From: Terriglobia bacterium
Lineage (GTDB): Bacteria; Acidobacteriota; Terriglobia; Terriglobales; Acidobacteriaceae
Reading direction: 5' to 3'
DNA: 64,000 nt
NCBI GenBank assembly: GCA_020073465.1
Contig: JAIQFC010000003.1
Span: forward strand, 62,001 to 126,000
The stretch's first letter is position 1. Each line of letters begins with the position of its first letter. Below the pieces are notes generated by a model that saw only the letters and a list, made by a program, of their open reading frames with translations, did no database searches and had not been told where the DNA came from. Shown here piece by piece: positions 16,354 through 44,447 of this stretch. The position numbers and the translations under genes are program-made.

Positions 16354-16842
16354 TTAGCGATACACCTGCAACGAAAAGACGACTGGCGCTCCTTCAAAGA
16401 GCAGTGTGGTCTGAAAAGAGCCGGCCTCCGCCACCAGATGGAGAGAATAATCTGCTCCGGTAATTACGGCTGGGACGGAGAGCAGGCAACCGTCGCCCAA
16501 TCCGGCGACCTTGTTTTTGAAGTTGCCGGCGACCATATTGCAGATTTCACCGACGGCGTCCCACATCTGGCAAGCTGCCTTCTCGACGTCGACCCCGAGC
16601 ATCTTGGAAGCCATGAGTCCTGCCGACTGGTCACTGCAGCGGACCGTCATGGTCCCGTACAACTCACCGGTCAAGCTCACCATGGACGTAACGTTGAGTC
16701 CGGCTGGGTCAGGCTGCTTCGCAGCAAGGGTGAGGTGGGAGTCCAACATGAGCTCGAAGACCTCCTGCGCAGCAGACTCGAGCAGCGGAATCCAGCACGG
16801 GCGGCCTTGTTCCGAGGGCAAAGCCTGGTCGACCGCATTCAT
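16354..16842 (-). CDS. cheX: CheX chemotaxis phosphatase
   Basis: MWDAVGEICNMVAGNFKNKVAG carries the CheC/CheX E..N signature. Confidence 0.88.
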   Translation of the reverse strand: MNAVDQALPSEQGRPCWIPLLESAAQEVFELMLDSHLTLAAKQPDPAGLNVTSMVSLTGELYGTMTVRCSDQSAGLMASKMLGVDVEKAACQMWDAVGEICNMVAGNFKNKVAGLGDGCLLSVPAVITGADYSLHLVAEAGSFQTTLLFEGAPVVFSLQVYR

Positions 16843-17225
16843 AGTTTGCCCGTCAGCACTGGAACAACATGCTCCTTTACCTGATCGGGCGTGAAAGGCT
16901 TGCGAATATAGCCGCGGGCTCCTGCCGAAAGCGCCTGCACAACGTGGGCTTCGCTGCCTTCGGTGGTAATCATCACGACTGGCGTGTCCTTGGCAATGTC
17001 CAGGAGTGACAATTGCTTTACGAACTCCAGACCATCCATGACCGGCATGTTGATGTCACAGAGAACGAGATCGACTGTATGTTCCTTGAGAGCCCCGAGG
17101 GCCTCGGCGCCGTTGGCAGCTTCGAAAACTTGGGAGATGCCGATGCCAGCCTGGCGCAGGGATCGCTCCACGATCTTTCGCATGACCGAGGAATCGTCAA
17201 CGATGAGGGCGCGTATGTTATCCAT
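16839..17225 (-). CDS. cheY: CheY response regulator
   Basis: IRALIVDDSSVMRKIVERSLRQAG...DLVLCDINMPVMDGLEFVKQL. Confidence 0.95.
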   Translation of the reverse strand: MDNIRALIVDDSSVMRKIVERSLRQAGIGISQVFEAANGAEALGALKEHTVDLVLCDINMPVMDGLEFVKQLSLLDIAKDTPVVMITTEGSEAHVVQALSAGARGYIRKPFTPDQVKEHVVPVLTGKL

Positions 17226-17287: not shown

Positions 17288-17315
17288 CTATCGGCAGAAA
17301 CGGCAGAGGACTTTA
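17288..17315 (-). promoter_or_regulatory. sigma28-type promoter upstream of cheY-cheX
   Basis: Minus strand TAAAGTCC-N12-GCCGATAG. Confidence 0.6.
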
Positions 17316-18242
17316 CGAGGCGGGGAGGGCAGAGGCGGAGGGCGGAGAAACGGAAAAGCGCTCCACGTCCTCGGGGACGATACGGAAGATCAGGTTCAAT
17401 GCCGTTGGCGCCGTACGTTCTAACCTGACCCAAATGCAGGAGCCGCAAAGCGCGATACGGATTTCAGAAGCCGCCACTTTGGTGGCGTAGCTGCGAATGA
17501 TGCGGGCAAATTCGAGCGCGTCGGCTACTCGATCGAATACGATCTCGGTCCGCCGGCGCTGTTCGCTGATTGCGGCCAGGCTGCTGCGGAGGACGTCCTG
17601 GCTGCACAGGCAGGCTTGGGTATGGCAGTCGAGCATGCGCTCAATGGCGTAGAGGACCGAATAATCGATGCCTTCGCCAAACGCGATGTGAAGGGTCGAA
17701 GTCGCTTCCACGAAGTCGACGGGGATCATGCGGAAGGAGTCGAGCAACGGTGTGGGAATGTCCGGAACACGGCTCGAGACGAGGGGGGCAGGGTGGATTC
17801 GCAGCACGGGACAGGACCACTGCCGGGCGAGCGCAGCCACAACCTGTTGCTCGGTGGCGAATCCGAGGCTCTGCAGCCATTCTCCAATCCTGCCGTGCCC
17901 CGCAGACTTTTGTGCGTCCAGCGCAATGCGTAGTTGAGCCGCCGTGAGCTGCTGCCGCGAAAGCAATAGCAGACCCAGCGGGATGCGATGCTGAGTTGCT
18001 TTGGGCCGGAAGGCGGGCTGCAGTTGTGCGAGCGTTTCCCTTAGCGCGCGTTCGAGACACTCCGCCATGCAATACCACGAGCCATGCATCCGGATTCCTG
18101 CGGTCCGGCCGCGCACTCGCCGCCAGGCACTCTGGGAAGCGCAGTCGCGGTAGCCACAGCGCGGCGCAAGCCTCCGCCAGAAGTGGCCCCATACCAGACT
18201 CCACGAAGCGGGATGGAAAACAGCAGCTCCCATAGTGTCCAA
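17313..18242 (-). CDS. MshEN/GspE N-terminal-domain-like protein, no ATPase domain, Cys-rich N-terminus
   Basis: IPLGLLLLSRQQLTAAQLRIALDAQKSAGHGRIGEWLQSLGFATEQQVVAALARQWSCPVL matches MshEN-type repeats; no Walker A motif; N-terminal C..C and WYCMAEC cluster. Confidence 0.7.
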   Translation of the reverse strand: MDTMGAAVFHPASWSLVWGHFWRRLAPRCGYRDCASQSAWRRVRGRTAGIRMHGSWYCMAECLERALRETLAQLQPAFRPKATQHRIPLGLLLLSRQQLTAAQLRIALDAQKSAGHGRIGEWLQSLGFATEQQVVAALARQWSCPVLRIHPAPLVSSRVPDIPTPLLDSFRMIPVDFVEATSTLHIAFGEGIDYSVLYAIERMLDCHTQACLCSQDVLRSSLAAISEQRRRTEIVFDRVADALEFARIIRSYATKVAASEIRIALCGSCIWVRLERTAPTALNLIFRIVPEDVERFSVSPPSASALPAS

Positions 18243-19082
18243 CTACACAGATCCCGGAGGCGCAACTTCGGTTACGCGCAATCCGTAATTGCCGTCCATG
18301 ACGACAACCTCTCCCCTGGCCAGGAGCCTGCCGTCAAGCAGCACGTCGACCGGTTCGTGTACCTGGCGGTCGAGTTCGATGACTGCTCCCGGACAAAGCT
18401 CCAGAACGTCGCGCAGCAGAAGGTTGCGGCCACCAAAGCGAAGAGTAAGCGCCAGCTCAACATCCATGAGCAACTCGAGCTTGGCTTCATTGTCCTGGGG
18501 CCCGGATGCAATGGCGGGGGTGGTGGCCTCCTGGGATTCCGCCGCCTCGGCTCGGACAGCGCGCAGTGCGGCCACCAGGGCAGCACTCAGGTGGAGTTCG
18601 AGGAGCATGGTGGCAGGTACGTCGCCTCCGGAACGCACCCAGGAGGTCGAGGAAGGCGGCCACGAAGGGGGACCGGAGGCTGCATCCAGCCGCAGTTGAA
18701 CTTCGCCCCACGCATCTTTCAGGGACGTGGCTACAATCCCGGCAACCTGGCGCAAGCACTCGAGAATGGCTTCGCGATGCTGGGGCGTGAGTTCCGCATC
18801 GGGGGCGGCGGGCTCACTCATGAAGGTCTGAGCCGCGCGCAGGGCCGAGACAGGATCGAGGCGCAGACTCATTTCCCCGCGCAGCCCGCCTGCGCAGGTA
18901 CAGAGAATCCAAAAATCGCGCTCGCTCACGGGCGTCGCCTCAGCCGGCGCTTCGGTAAGCAGGGCACAGGGAACCACAAAGCCTGCGATCTGCCCCAGCA
19001 CTTGCGAGAAGCTGTCAACCCAGTTCTGAATCAATGAGACGACCGCTTCCGGTCGAACCACCGCCGCTGCAGCTTCACTCAT
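18243..19082 (-). CDS. fliN: FliN/FliY-type C-ring protein (C-terminal SpoA domain, long N-terminal extension)
   Basis: LLMDVELALTLRFGGRNLLLRDVLELCPGAVIELDRQVHEPVDVLLDGRLLARGEVVVMDGNYGLRVTEV. Confidence 0.85.
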   Translation of the reverse strand: MSEAAAAVVRPEAVVSLIQNWVDSFSQVLGQIAGFVVPCALLTEAPAEATPVSERDFWILCTCAGGLRGEMSLRLDPVSALRAAQTFMSEPAAPDAELTPQHREAILECLRQVAGIVATSLKDAWGEVQLRLDAASGPPSWPPSSTSWVRSGGDVPATMLLELHLSAALVAALRAVRAEAAESQEATTPAIASGPQDNEAKLELLMDVELALTLRFGGRNLLLRDVLELCPGAVIELDRQVHEPVDVLLDGRLLARGEVVVMDGNYGLRVTEVAPPGSV

Positions 19083-20074
19083 AGTGTCGGGTTCTCCTTG
19101 ATTTGCGCTTCTGCCGATTCCAGGCGCGATTCGAGCACCTTCGCGGCGCGCAGGTTGCGGCACCGTGCGGGGATGGCGCGGAAGATTTCGAGACCCGCGA
19201 CCAGCAGGGACGCGGGTTTGGCGGAACTGCGCGAAAACGAGAGCAACTTCCCGGGCGCGAGGTCGGTCAGCTTTCCAATTGCGCTGTTCAGGCCTGTGGC
19301 TCCCAGTTCCACGCGGAAGGGGCAGTCCAGCAACCGGCGCACGAGGCGCTGCCGGGAGTCGGCCTGACCGCGCGGACGGCGGTAACTCCAGTCCGCGGAG
19401 ATTTTCCGCAGCAGGGCATTCGACACCGCGGCCGGCACGGCCAGATTCAATCCCCCCCGCACGTCCGACATGTTGATCTCGAAGCTCAGGCAGAAACTCT
19501 TCTCCTCGGGAGGCATCAGGCGATTCGCCGCTCCCTCCTCCAGACGCTCATCGAAGGAAACCACCAGGGACAGAGCCTGCCAGGCCGCGCCCAGTTCGCG
19601 GAAGACGATGCGCGCCACACTCTCGAGAATCTGCTCCTCGATCTGAGTGATTTGCCGGGCCGCGATGGTGCCCTTGCCTTCGCCGCCCAGCAGCACATCG
19701 ACGACGGGAAACGCCACTTTGAGATCGAGCTGCAGCAGGCCACTCATGCCCATGGGCTCCAGCCGGCAGGAAGCAAGATAGGTGGTCTCGGGAACGCGTT
19801 GCAGAAATTCGCGGTAGGTAAGGTTCTCGGCCGACACCAGCGTGGCGGCAAAGGCCACGCGCAGGTACGCACCGAGGGCGTGCGTGAGGTTACGGGCAAA
19901 AGCTTCGTGCAGCACGGTGATGGCATGCAATTGCTCGCGCCCGATCACGCCGGCACGGCGCGCATCCCAGGTCTCGATCCGGGGCTGGTCGGCGGGAGGC
20001 AGATCGAGCCGCCCCCCGGCGCGGGCCGCCTTCACCAGAGCATCAATCTCTTCCTGATTCAGCAGTCGCTGCAT
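19079..20074 (-). CDS. fliM: Flagellar motor switch protein FliM
   Basis: N-terminal LNQEEIDALVKA CheY-binding motif; FliM body. Confidence 0.93.
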   Translation of the reverse strand: MQRLLNQEEIDALVKAARAGGRLDLPPADQPRIETWDARRAGVIGREQLHAITVLHEAFARNLTHALGAYLRVAFAATLVSAENLTYREFLQRVPETTYLASCRLEPMGMSGLLQLDLKVAFPVVDVLLGGEGKGTIAARQITQIEEQILESVARIVFRELGAAWQALSLVVSFDERLEEGAANRLMPPEEKSFCLSFEINMSDVRGGLNLAVPAAVSNALLRKISADWSYRRPRGQADSRQRLVRRLLDCPFRVELGATGLNSAIGKLTDLAPGKLLSFSRSSAKPASLLVAGLEIFRAIPARCRNLRAAKVLESRLESAEAQIKENPTL

Positions 20075-20086
20075 CGCGTGTGTCCT

Positions 20087-20878
20087 TTACTCCGCACCCT
20101 GCGCAGCGGCACGGGCCAGGCCGCTGCCTCCGGCACCCGTCAGTTCCTCAAGACGCGCCCGCAAGCGCACCACCGCGAGCGAATGGATCTGCGAGACCCG
20201 CGACTCGCCGATCCCGAGAACCGCCCCCACTTCCTTCATGGTGAGCTCCTCGAAGTAGTACAGCGCCAGCACCTGCTGCTCCTTCTCGGGCAGTTCGGCG
20301 ATGACGCGGGCAAGAAGCTCCTTCATCTCCGAGCGCAGGCAGCGGAAGAACGGCGTGTCTTCCGGCGCGCTGGGGAGATAGTCGCAGAGATCTTCCTCCT
20401 TGCCGTCCCAGGGCGACTCGATGCGCAAGCTGCCGATTTCGAGGCTGTCGAGCTCGCCCAGCAGCAGCTGAAACTCCTTCAGCCCAAGACCCAGTTCCGC
20501 CGCCACTTCGTTCTCGGTGGGGGCGCGGCTGAGCTCCAGACTGAGCTTGCGATGCGCCTCCTCCACCTTGCGCGCCTTGCGCCGCAGCTCGCGCGGGCCC
20601 CAGTCCATCTCGCGGAGGCTGTCGAGAATCGCGCCCCGGATGCGGAACTTGGCGTAGGAACCGAACTGCACATGCTTGGAGCGATCAAACTTGTTGAGCG
20701 CGTCAATCAAGCCGATCACGCCGGCATGCACCAGGTCTTCGAGCGGCACATGGCGGGGCAGCCGTTCGTGAATGCGCCGGGCAAGATAGCGCACCTGGGG
20801 GAGTTGCTCGAGCAGGATGCGGTCCCGCTCCCCGTTGTCCTGCCACGCGGTATAGGCTTGCGCTGTATTACGGCTCAT
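20087..20878 (-). CDS. fliA: Flagellar sigma factor FliA (sigma28)
   Basis: YLARRIHERLPRHVPLEDLVHAGVIGLIDALNKFDRSKHVQFGSYAKFRIRGAILDSLREMDWGPRELRRKAR. Confidence 0.96.
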   Translation of the reverse strand: MSRNTAQAYTAWQDNGERDRILLEQLPQVRYLARRIHERLPRHVPLEDLVHAGVIGLIDALNKFDRSKHVQFGSYAKFRIRGAILDSLREMDWGPRELRRKARKVEEAHRKLSLELSRAPTENEVAAELGLGLKEFQLLLGELDSLEIGSLRIESPWDGKEEDLCDYLPSAPEDTPFFRCLRSEMKELLARVIAELPEKEQQVLALYYFEELTMKEVGAVLGIGESRVSQIHSLAVVRLRARLEELTGAGGSGLARAAAQGAE

Positions 20879-20966
20879 GGCTGGCTTTCTCACTTCCGTC
20901 TTCCGTGTTCTGGTGCGGCTTCTCATCCATTGGTTCTCTTCAGTCGTGCCGTGGTTAAGGCTGTTC

Positions 20967-26327: not shown

Positions 26328-26663
26328 TCACGCCAGTTCGGTTACCCTCACCGCCAGCCGGTTTCCAACCACCTCAAACTCGCTCCAGCCAATCAAGGTT
26401 CCGTTGATGCGAAGCGGCACATCCCGGGAAGCGTGCCAGTGGGTTCCAATCACCGATCCCACGCGCAGCTGCAGCAGGTCAGAAACCCTGAAGTTCGGCA
26501 TCGGAAGATCCACCGTGAGCTGGCAGGGCAGGCCGAGCACGGGCCTCCACCGGGCTTCGGCAAGATCCGCCTCGGGCGCACTCTTCGAAGGGAGGCTCGA
26601 GGCTGCGTTCACGGCCGCTCTCGCATTCGGTGACGATTGCTCGGTGCTGGCTGCGACTGACAT
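26328..26663 (-). CDS. fliN: FliN C-ring protein
   Basis: SpoA domain VLGLPCQLTVDLPMPNFRVSDLLQLRVGSVIGTHW...VGNRLAVRVTEL. Confidence 0.85.
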   Translation of the reverse strand: MSVAASTEQSSPNARAAVNAASSLPSKSAPEADLAEARWRPVLGLPCQLTVDLPMPNFRVSDLLQLRVGSVIGTHWHASRDVPLRINGTLIGWSEFEVVGNRLAVRVTELA

Positions 26664-41527: not shown

Positions 41528-42214
41528 CTACAAAGCGTTCGAAAATGAAGCCAGCGGCAGCCGGATCGAGACGGTGTGCAGCCCCTCCGTGCCTTCGCTG
41601 GTCCAATCCGCGCCGACACGTCTCCAACCCGCTGACGCGATTAACAATCCCAGCTCCGGGCGCGAGAAAGGGGAGTACTGCGGCAACCGCTTTCCTTCAT
41701 CCCAGCTGACCGCGACGCGACCATCTTCTTGCCGACGCTCCATGGCAATGCGAAGAACACTCCCTTCCTCGGCCAGGCTCAATGCGGATTCGAGGAAGCG
41801 GAAGATCAGGGTCGGCAGCATCTGCCGCCCGGCACGAACCGGCAGGGGAGCATTGCCCGAAAGCGCAATTTCGACCCGCTTTGCCTCCGCGACCGGGCGC
41901 AGATCCCCGGCCGTCTCGCGGACGAGACCGTCCAGCGAGAGGATCTCCATTGCTTCCGTTTCCGGTTGCTCACCCTCGGCCAGTTCGCGGATCGCCTCCA
42001 CCAGAATGCGCATCCTTGCCGTCAATTCCAGTCCGTCACGCATAGTGTGGGTGTACTGCTCAGACGTGCGGGGACCGGCGACGGCCAACTCCAGCGAACA
42101 CTGCAGCCCGGTCAGTGGCTGGTTGAGCGCATGCAGCAAATGAGCCAGGGGAGTCCGGCCCCTGGGAACAGCACTTTTGTTCTCGCGCGTTGCCTGGCTG
42201 CCGGTAGCACTCAT
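41528..42214 (-). CDS. Soluble kinase-like protein with degenerate ATPase region
   Basis: H-box-like LLHALNQPLTGLQ; ATPase region lacks clear N-box and DxGxG. Confidence 0.6.
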   Translation of the reverse strand: MSATGSQATRENKSAVPRGRTPLAHLLHALNQPLTGLQCSLELAVAGPRTSEQYTHTMRDGLELTARMRILVEAIRELAEGEQPETEAMEILSLDGLVRETAGDLRPVAEAKRVEIALSGNAPLPVRAGRQMLPTLIFRFLESALSLAEEGSVLRIAMERRQEDGRVAVSWDEGKRLPQYSPFSRPELGLLIASAGWRRVGADWTSEGTEGLHTVSIRLPLASFSNAL

Positions 42215-42897
42215 AGGCGAACACCCGCAGCCGCGCTTAGTTCGTATCCCACTCCGCGGACGGTATGGATGAGCTTGTTGGGATGTCCGTCATCGATTTT
42301 GCGGCGAAGATAGTTGATGTACACGTCGACCACGTTGGTGGTCGTATCAAACGTAAGATTCCAGACATGCTCGATGATCATGGCACGGGTGACGCGGCGG
42401 CCGGTGTTCCGCATGAGGTATTCGAGCAGGGCAAATTCCTTGGTAGTCAGCTCGATTCTGCGCCCGGCGCGTTCGACGCGGCGTTCCACGCGATCGAGTT
42501 TCAGGTCATCGATCACCAGCACGGACTCCGAAGGCAAATGGCTGCGACGAAACAATGCGCGAATGCGAGCCGAGAGCTCGCTGTAGGAGAATGGCTTTGC
42601 CAGATAGTCATCCGCGCCGGTATCGAGGCACTGTACCCGGTCTTCCACCCGCGTGCGCTGGGTCAGGACCAGCACGGGCACGGTGGGCTTCTTCAGACGC
42701 AACTGCCGCAGGATGCTGACTCCATCGAGCTTCGGCAGGTTCAGATCCAGAATCACCAGGTCATAGTCGAGTTCATTGGCGGCAGACTGGGCCTGCTCAC
42801 CATCGGAATAGACATCTACCTCGTAGTGCTCGGATTCCAGACCTTGGCTTACAAACTTCGCTAGAGCCGCATCATCTTCTGCTATGAGGATTCGCAT
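42211..42897 (-). CDS. OmpR/PhoB-family response regulator
   Basis: MRILIAEDDAALAKFVSQGLESEHYEVDVYSDGEQA plus winged-helix C-terminus. Confidence 0.95.
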   Translation of the reverse strand: MRILIAEDDAALAKFVSQGLESEHYEVDVYSDGEQAQSAANELDYDLVILDLNLPKLDGVSILRQLRLKKPTVPVLVLTQRTRVEDRVQCLDTGADDYLAKPFSYSELSARIRALFRRSHLPSESVLVIDDLKLDRVERRVERAGRRIELTTKEFALLEYLMRNTGRRVTRAMIIEHVWNLTFDTTTNVVDVYINYLRRKIDDGHPNKLIHTVRGVGYELSAAAGVRL

Positions 42898-43124: not shown

Positions 43125-44447
43125 TTGCGCGTGCATGTGTGGAGCAAAACGGCCTTGAAGTCTCTGCTGCCCGGCGGCATCTTGCTGCTCGCGGTCGTGG
43201 TGCTGGTAGAGACCGGGTGGCTTACACTCGCGCTGCCAACGCTCATCCTTTTGTATTACGCGTCACTCACAATCGGCTTGTTGCTGGCGTGGCGGTTTCA
43301 CTCGAGCAGAGTATTCTTTGCATTGATTGTCCTCTTCCTGGCTCAGCAGGCGATTGCCGGGTTGTCACCGGGGCGAGCTCTGCACGGTGGGCTCGGCCAG
43401 GCTGCCTTCTCAGCGGTGGCCGTGCTTCTGCCTCTGAACTTCGTTCTGCTTTCGCTCGAACGCGAACGCGGCTTCACCATGTCCGGCGTAGCCACCCGAA
43501 GCCTCTTTCTGTTCGCGCAGTCGGTTGTGGTCGCGGTGCTTGGTCACGTGGACAGTGCTTCTATTACTGTCCACAGCGGGCATCATCTGGCAACATCAGT
43601 TCCATTGCCGGGATATGTCTGGTTTGCATTTGGAGCGGCAGTTATCATCCTCATGTCGCGTTTCTTGCTGTTCCGCAAACCTGTGGAAAGCGCTCTGTTT
43701 TGGTCTTTGGGCGGATTCTTTCTCGCGATTCATTTTGGGGGTACCGGCCGGATCGCGACAGCTTATTCTGCTGCCTCGGCATTTATCCTCGCAGTTTCCA
43801 TTATTGAGACTTCTTACGTACTCGCCTATCACGATGAGCTGACGACCCTGCCGTCTCGCCGTGCATTCAATGATGCGTTGTTGCGACTGCAGGCACCGTA
43901 CTCGATTGCCATCGTCGACATCGATCACTTCAAGAAGTTCAACGACAACTACGGCCACGATACCGGAGATGAGGTTCTGCGTCTGGTCGCATCCAAGCTG
44001 GCGCGAGTCACGGGAGGCGGTGAGGCGTATCGCTGCGGGGGAGAAGAATTCGCGATCCTGTTCTGCGGCAAGACGACTTCCGAGGTCGCCGACCATCTCG
44101 AGCAATTGCGAGCCACGATTGAAGGCTCTTCGTTCAGGATGAGGGGAGATGATCGCCGCCAGACGCCGCGGGGTGCCGACCGCCGCAACCAACGAACGCG
44201 CGGACGCACGTCACCCGGGCACGCGATTCGCAGGCTCACGCAGGCGCCGGCGAACCATCGCTCTGTTCTGTCTGTTACCGTCAGCATCGGCGTGGCCACG
44301 TCGGCAAAGGAAAATGCGGATGCAGAGCAGGTGATCCGCGCCGCCGATAAGGCTTTGTACCGGGCCAAGGCTGCCGGACGCAACCGGGTCGAAACCGCGG
44401 CTTTCCCACGCCGCCGCACACGCGTCAAGGCTGCCGGGATTGCCTGA
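43125..44447 (+). CDS. Membrane diguanylate cyclase (multi-TM plus GGDEF domain)
   Basis: Seven or so hydrophobic segments then HDELTTLPSRRAFNDALL...YRCGGEEFAILF; TTG start likely. Confidence 0.9.
   Translation: MRVHVWSKTALKSLLPGGILLLAVVVLVETGWLTLALPTLILLYYASLTIGLLLAWRFHSSRVFFALIVLFLAQQAIAGLSPGRALHGGLGQAAFSAVAVLLPLNFVLLSLERERGFTMSGVATRSLFLFAQSVVVAVLGHVDSASITVHSGHHLATSVPLPGYVWFAFGAAVIILMSRFLLFRKPVESALFWSLGGFFLAIHFGGTGRIATAYSAASAFILAVSIIETSYVLAYHDELTTLPSRRAFNDALLRLQAPYSIAIVDIDHFKKFNDNYGHDTGDEVLRLVASKLARVTGGGEAYRCGGEEFAILFCGKTTSEVADHLEQLRATIEGSSFRMRGDDRRQTPRGADRRNQRTRGRTSPGHAIRRLTQAPANHRSVLSVTVSIGVATSAKENADAEQVIRAADKALYRAKAAGRNRVETAAFPRRRTRVKAAGIA

Follow-up and report, generated by a model that had tools for sequence, protein, structure and literature searches.

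A small gene lodged among the flagellar switch and chemotaxis genes of a Terriglobia bacterium raises the question of how c-di-GMP might reach the flagellar motor in Acidobacteriota, a phylum abundant in soils. To our knowledge, a c-di-GMP route to the motor is known for few lineages, the usual c-di-GMP brake protein and known motor receptor family being YcgR. The window analysed here, a 64,000-nucleotide stretch of contig JAIQFC010000003.1, contains a large flagellar cluster in which the gene order runs FliA, FliM, FliN/FliY-type, MshEN gene, CheY, CheX, FlgF, FlgG. The genes needed for the argument are the following:

20087..20926, minus strand: fliA-type sigma factor gene (Sigma70 r2/r3/r4)
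19079..20074, minus strand: fliM (PF02154, 1.3e-33)
18243..19163, minus strand: FliY-like/FliN-type switch gene, the immediate upstream neighbour (PF01052, 2.5e-22)
17313..18233, minus strand: gene for the MshEN-type protein, 306 aa, ATG at 18233 (open reading frame, homologue alignment, NF053729 above cut-off)
16839..17225, minus strand: cheY-type response regulator gene (PF00072, 1.1e-31)
16354..16842, minus strand: cheX (PF13690, 1.8e-18)
43125..44447, plus strand: GGDEF gene at the far edge of the flagellar cluster, a possible c-di-GMP source (PF00990, 3.4e-33)

These Pfam matches bear out the placement given in the initial annotation, behind fliM and a fliN-type gene and ahead of cheY-cheX, as well as its GGDEF gene. 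The open reading frame that it described (17313..18242, minus strand) also exists and opens with TTG, directly after the stop of the FliN-type gene, but its start was set aside, as the alignment of homologues suggests ATG 18233 rather than TTG 18242. Among homologues, dN/dS was about 0.12-0.34 where estimable (with dS close to saturation in most pairs), which marks it as a genuine gene rather than a chance reading frame. The upstream FliY-like protein consists of a FliN C-terminal domain plus ~230 residues, and this front part carries no CheC phosphatase signature evident by eye. It is the longer of two FliN-type gene products in the window, the other being encoded at 26328..26663. The genome from which the window comes also has, at a contig edge (G000:C5:5-1087), a partial second homologue of FlhA/type III export proteins, perhaps part of a second flagellar or secretion system. 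Judging from named relatives and a kinship comparison, the host belongs in or close to the genus named Candidatus Sulfotelmatobacter by MAG authors.

What kind of protein does the gene encode? Its layout is that of a Cys finger, a complete MshEN domain (residues 82-225) and a short C-terminal domain, distributed as follows:

18036..18164, minus strand: four-Cys finger, residues 24-66, C26-x4-C31-x23-C55-x3-C59
17910..17981, minus strand: MshEN motif I, residues 85-108, PLGLLLLSRQQLTAAQLRIALDAQ, PLG...LxxxLxxQ (phmmer alignment to 5HTL)
17820..17891, minus strand: MshEN motif II, residues 115-138, RIGEWLQSLGFATEQQVVAALARQ, RIG...VxxxLxxQ (NF053729 alignment)
17559..17813, minus strand: MshEN C-terminal subdomain, residues 141-225 (hhalign to PilB, profile matches)
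17364..17558, minus strand: C-terminal alpha/beta domain, residues 226-290, resembling the start of N2E (PilB/GspE), with the invariant W268

Both of the MshEN-like repeats noticed earlier are present as tandem 24-residue motifs, with motif I deviating at positions 1, 10 and 11. The NCBIfam model NF053729, an MshE-related c-di-GMP domain, covered residues 85-138 with 41.8 bits (cut-off 38) and matched all 21 homologues of our alignment A2, as well as distant homologues in other classes. When Pfam PF05157 was run against the window's own genome, it did not match the window protein, while distant homologues of that protein passed; since NCBIfam and profile searches did match the protein, we consider this a matter of sensitivity. 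In phmmer the MshE structure 5HTL ranked first (6e-9), the A2 profile matched PilF, PilB and MshE structures (5HTL at 1.9e-13), and hhalign aligned residues 86-220 with 20 PilB-type ATPases of related genomes (E 4.5e-17). An AlphaFold model (pLDDT 86.9) had ligand-bound 5HTL, that is, MshE with c-di-GMP, as its top PDB match in Foldseek (E 4e-8, prob 1.00, TM 0.78 on the target), showing the four-helix MshEN_N followed by the alpha/beta MshEN_C; the structural match to MshEN that the initial annotation proposed as a check was thus found. A SymE_toxin match (E 0.06, far under its cut-off) was discarded as noise.

We then asked what has been preserved in this domain. The MshEN motif is RLGxx(L/V/I)(L/V/I)xxG(L/V/I)(L/V/I)xxxxLxxxLxxQ (Wang et al. 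2016, PMC5013675), and its relaxed form starts [RKPN]hG, Pro being allowed first (PMC5013675). Among 59 distinct homologues from several Acidobacteriota classes, variation was lowest at the cysteines of the finger and at the c-di-GMP ligands: G87, Q138, C59 and W268 never varied, and C26, C55, G117, L105, P160, Q108, R270, R83 and C31 came next. For motif I, G87 was kept in 59/59, L105 in 58/59 and Q108 in 58/59 homologues; for motif II, the counts were 57/59 for R/K115, 58/59 for G117 and 59/59 for Q138. The ligand set of Arg-1, Leu-2, Gly-3, Leu-17, Leu-21 and Gln-24 was therefore present, hydrophobic positions included, with the exception of the motif I Arg. The loss of key Arg/Gly ligands in homologues, which the initial annotation had named as a refutation, was thus not observed: the ligand residues are near-invariant apart from motif I Arg-1, which is Pro in 52 of the 59, as the relaxed motif permits. 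R83, two residues before motif I and kept in 57/59, corresponds to Arg7 of MshE. The window protein has Gln instead of Gly-10 in motif I, and two members from another class have R-L-G (canonical; L100) and K-I-G (L101) in motif I.

Could the protein be a structural accessory of the rotor that has lost c-di-GMP binding, as XpsE has among MshEN proteins? The Pro at position 1 and the Gln at position 10 of motif I would suit such a loss, and PilF GSPII-A is an example of a domain close to the consensus that nevertheless does not bind c-di-GMP (PMC12002112). Yet a structural role alone would not require Gly-3 and Gln-24 of both motifs and the Leu positions to be near-invariant, as they are, and PilF GSPII-C binds c-di-GMP although one of its motifs has Pro at the first position (PMC11731258); binding without Arg is likewise documented, for PilF GSPII-B (PMC11731258). 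We consider a purely structural role very improbable, and the c-di-GMP site of the window protein appears intact.

The cysteine cluster ahead of the domain proved to be real and conserved, with C26 in 58/59, C31 in 56/59, C55 in 58/59 and C59 in 59/59 distinct homologues, nearly all of which share the spacing C-x(2-4)-C-x(19-27)-C-x3-C. We therefore rejected the idea that the Cys-rich N-terminus is an artefact of an over-extended reading frame. In the AlphaFold model, the finger forms a beta hairpin and then a helix that begins between C55 and C59. Pattern and predicted secondary structure fit a treble-clef/TRASH-like arrangement (C-x2-4-C-x~20-C-x3-C with hairpin and helix), and no Pfam zinc-finger model matched. 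Judging from these residues, the finger probably binds zinc, and the joint conservation of putative metal and c-di-GMP ligands is the trace that would be expected from selection for both functions.

Behind the motifs, the roughly 130 residues that the initial annotation could not assign turned out to be the MshEN C-terminal subdomain (~141-225) and a small domain (226-290) that resembles the beginning of N2E and is predicted as beta-alpha-beta-beta-beta. Against N2E, the latter scored 18.5-18.6 in hhalign (E about 0.02), in colinear order, and none of 200 column shuffles exceeded 16.9; the start of N2E was its best profile match among all PilB positions. With E values of 0.02-0.4, homology to the start of N2E is no more than suggestive. 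The reported lack of Walker A/B motifs stands, as neither a GxxxxGK[ST]/Walker motif nor a RecA-like domain was found in the 306-aa protein, which stops ahead of the position of that domain, and the PilB model TIGR02538 was matched only over positions 3-142 of 564. The protein thus resembles the first half of a PilB/GspE-type ATPase, cut off ahead of the RecA domain and with a finger added. No Pfam match to a PilZ domain, as in YcgR-type receptors, or to REC (PF00072), as in Cle/CheY-like proteins, was obtained for the window protein.

Next to its architecture, the gene's distribution speaks to its function. Far from being the orphan it was first taken for, it belongs to a conserved family in Acidobacteriota. 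A search of 40 genomes of relatives gave 12 homologues, the window's own included, and a peptide-pattern scan of contigs gave 24 named loci, all in Acidobacteriota, with patterns that also missed distant acidobacterial homologues. In a class sample of 200 Terriglobia genomes, where the MshEN gene was called at profile bits >150, fliM occurred in 103 genomes and the MshEN gene in 53. All 53 of the latter had fliM (Fisher p 7e-20, a value that overstates the case because related genomes are not independent, the effect itself being independent of p), and in 48/53 the MshEN gene followed the fliM match on the same strand at a distance of 0.7-1.8 kb. In five genomes (G090, G152, G156, G172, G192) fliM is elsewhere, and a FliY-like gene still adjoins the MshEN gene. 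A FliY-like gene was also immediately upstream in 19/19 named loci whose context is neither truncated nor deleted, at a spacing of -13 to +85 bp, so that the two genes overlap or come close to it. In other classes of the phylum sample, the gene lies between fliM/fliY and flgF/flgG, sometimes with intervening genes. Homologues thus sit almost always beside switch genes, as the initial annotation had anticipated for flagellar genes in general, and since the FliY-like gene stays adjacent where fliM has moved, the FliY/FliN-type protein is the likeliest partner, in preference to FliM.

The same gene string includes flhB, flhA, fliA and flgF/flgG, and four-Cys fingers often serve as contact modules. 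We also considered that the protein reads c-di-GMP but influences how flagella are built or their genes expressed (export gate, FliA, hook-basal-body order), not the running motor, with the finger as its protein- or DNA-contacting part. This is unlikely in our judgement: no neighbour is linked to the gene more tightly than the switch gene fliY, a link that persists where fliM has moved, and in the window the gene is followed by cheY and cheX, whose products act on rotation.

Not every flagellated member of the class has the gene. Genomes with fliM that lack it fall mostly into families f6 and f4, whose FliM proteins score much higher against Pfam and which may represent another flagellar lineage within the same class. 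The neighbouring genes there (e.g. in G146 and G059; L115, L118) are without detectable similarity to the window's flagellar genes. Some flagellated relatives also lack the MshEN gene, and of those that share the gene order, two carry an HDOD gene in the slot after fliY (L113:5578-6624, L117:6790-7500), possibly as a replacement. Given these relatives and the f6/f4 genomes, the MshEN protein is not an obligatory switch subunit. The YcgR-type N-domains PF12945 and PF07317 were each detected in 1/200 Terriglobia genomes.

The opposite situation was encountered in three MAGs, G005, G009 and G024, where the MshEN gene is retained although neither fliM nor flhA is present (the contig of G024 ends inside the MshEN gene), with dN/dS of 0.13-0.18 within the group. 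A single deletion junction is common to G009 and G024: there, a response-regulator gene continues in frame as the tail of fliY; in G005 the junction is a different one, into fliM, with fliY kept. These MAGs are 80-95% complete and stem from a single sampling project, so misassembly or absent contigs may be involved; if the loss is true, the retention of the gene at such dN/dS values may indicate some use without a motor. In four MAG contigs of one project (L048, L059, L061, L049), a response-regulator gene like that at 42211..42897 of the window is cut at its VDVYIN codons and fused in frame to the fliY tail (three) or to mid-fliM (one). Either the whole flagellar cluster was lost repeatedly at almost one position, or the contigs are assembly chimeras.

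A more general c-di-GMP effector whose position in the flagellar operon is incidental, for instance one that links flagella and type IV pili, would suit these copies, which remain under purifying selection although fliM/flhA are missing from the MAGs and which border on a truncated response-regulator gene, with a GGDEF gene nearby. The class sample holds no genome with the gene and without fliM, however, and two leftover copies are broken, L061 by a frameshift and L062 by loss of its front part, which fits decay after flagellar loss; the intact leftover copies represent one project and one lineage. We consider the general-effector explanation distinctly unlikely.

A motor-level adaptor is the best reading of three observations: the gene's slot next to switch genes and cheY/cheX, a conserved c-di-GMP site, and YcgR N-domains that are nearly absent from the class. 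We lean, by somewhat more than an even chance, towards the Cys-finger MshEN protein being an adaptor at the flagellar switch complex that responds to c-di-GMP and changes motor output. The proposal of the initial annotation is thereby supported as a candidate. The MshEN domain would go back to the N-terminal region of an ATPase of the PilB/GspE type, the motor domain being absent, and, going by conserved ligands and fold, its two 24-residue motifs would bind one c-di-GMP. Docking on the rotor would fall to the Cys finger, which probably carries zinc, to the small C-terminal domain or to both, the docking site being most likely, as gene order suggests, the FliY/FliN-type protein encoded just upstream. 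Ligand binding might then reorient the two MshEN subdomains and change switch bias or speed, next to the CheY input. By analogy, this role would be the one that YcgR has elsewhere; the sign of the effect is a low-confidence matter, with a brake as the default guess. The Cys-finger MshEN protein is probably a c-di-GMP route to swimming where YcgR is missing.

It is a wider claim, to which we give slightly less than an even chance, that Acidobacteriota evolved their own switch-level c-di-GMP input from the sensor half of a pilus/secretion ATPase, its motor left out, and a FliY/FliN-docking metal finger, a third receptor type beside YcgR/PilZ and Cle. If true, an MshEN domain would be at work apart from any ATPase or enzyme. 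For Acidobacteriota, the protein is a testable motor c-di-GMP candidate with defined ligand residues, a likely partner and near-complete genomes of relatives. In the literature covered, whose scope excluded most subscription papers and all preprints, we found no report of a separate Cys-finger MshEN protein tied to a phylum's switch operon, nor of an MshEN-flagellum link in Acidobacteria.

Among known systems, the N-terminal domain of MshE (VcMshEN, 5HTL) is closest, sharing the two tandem 24-residue motifs, both subdomain folds, the Gly-3, Leu and Gln-24 ligands and the Arg two residues ahead of motif I. In contrast to VcMshEN, the window protein has no ATPase, an extra N-terminal Cys finger, Pro in place of Arg9, a linker of 6 instead of 5 residues and a flagellar rather than a pilus context. 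With PilB/GspE-type ATPases, including the GSPII domains of Thermus PilF, it has in common the order of MshEN_N, MshEN_C and a start-of-N2E-like segment, but it ends ahead of the RecA-like domain and has no Walker A. Motor-level c-di-GMP receptors are already known in the form of PilZ and Cle proteins (PMC5677366). The PilZ receptors YcgR/FlgZ/MotI share the proposed role, a c-di-GMP input at the rotor, whereas their domain is unrelated, the window protein having no PilZ match, and YcgR N-domains are practically absent from Terriglobia. The Cle proteins of Caulobacter (PMC5677366) share the proposed c-di-GMP-dependent tuning of the motor switch, but they are CheY-like, while the window protein is without a receiver domain. 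Finally, fusions of MshEN to CheA or CheX have already been listed (PMC5013675) and likewise recruit the domain to chemotaxis output; here, by contrast, it is encoded by a separate Cys-finger gene that adjoins cheY-cheX unfused.
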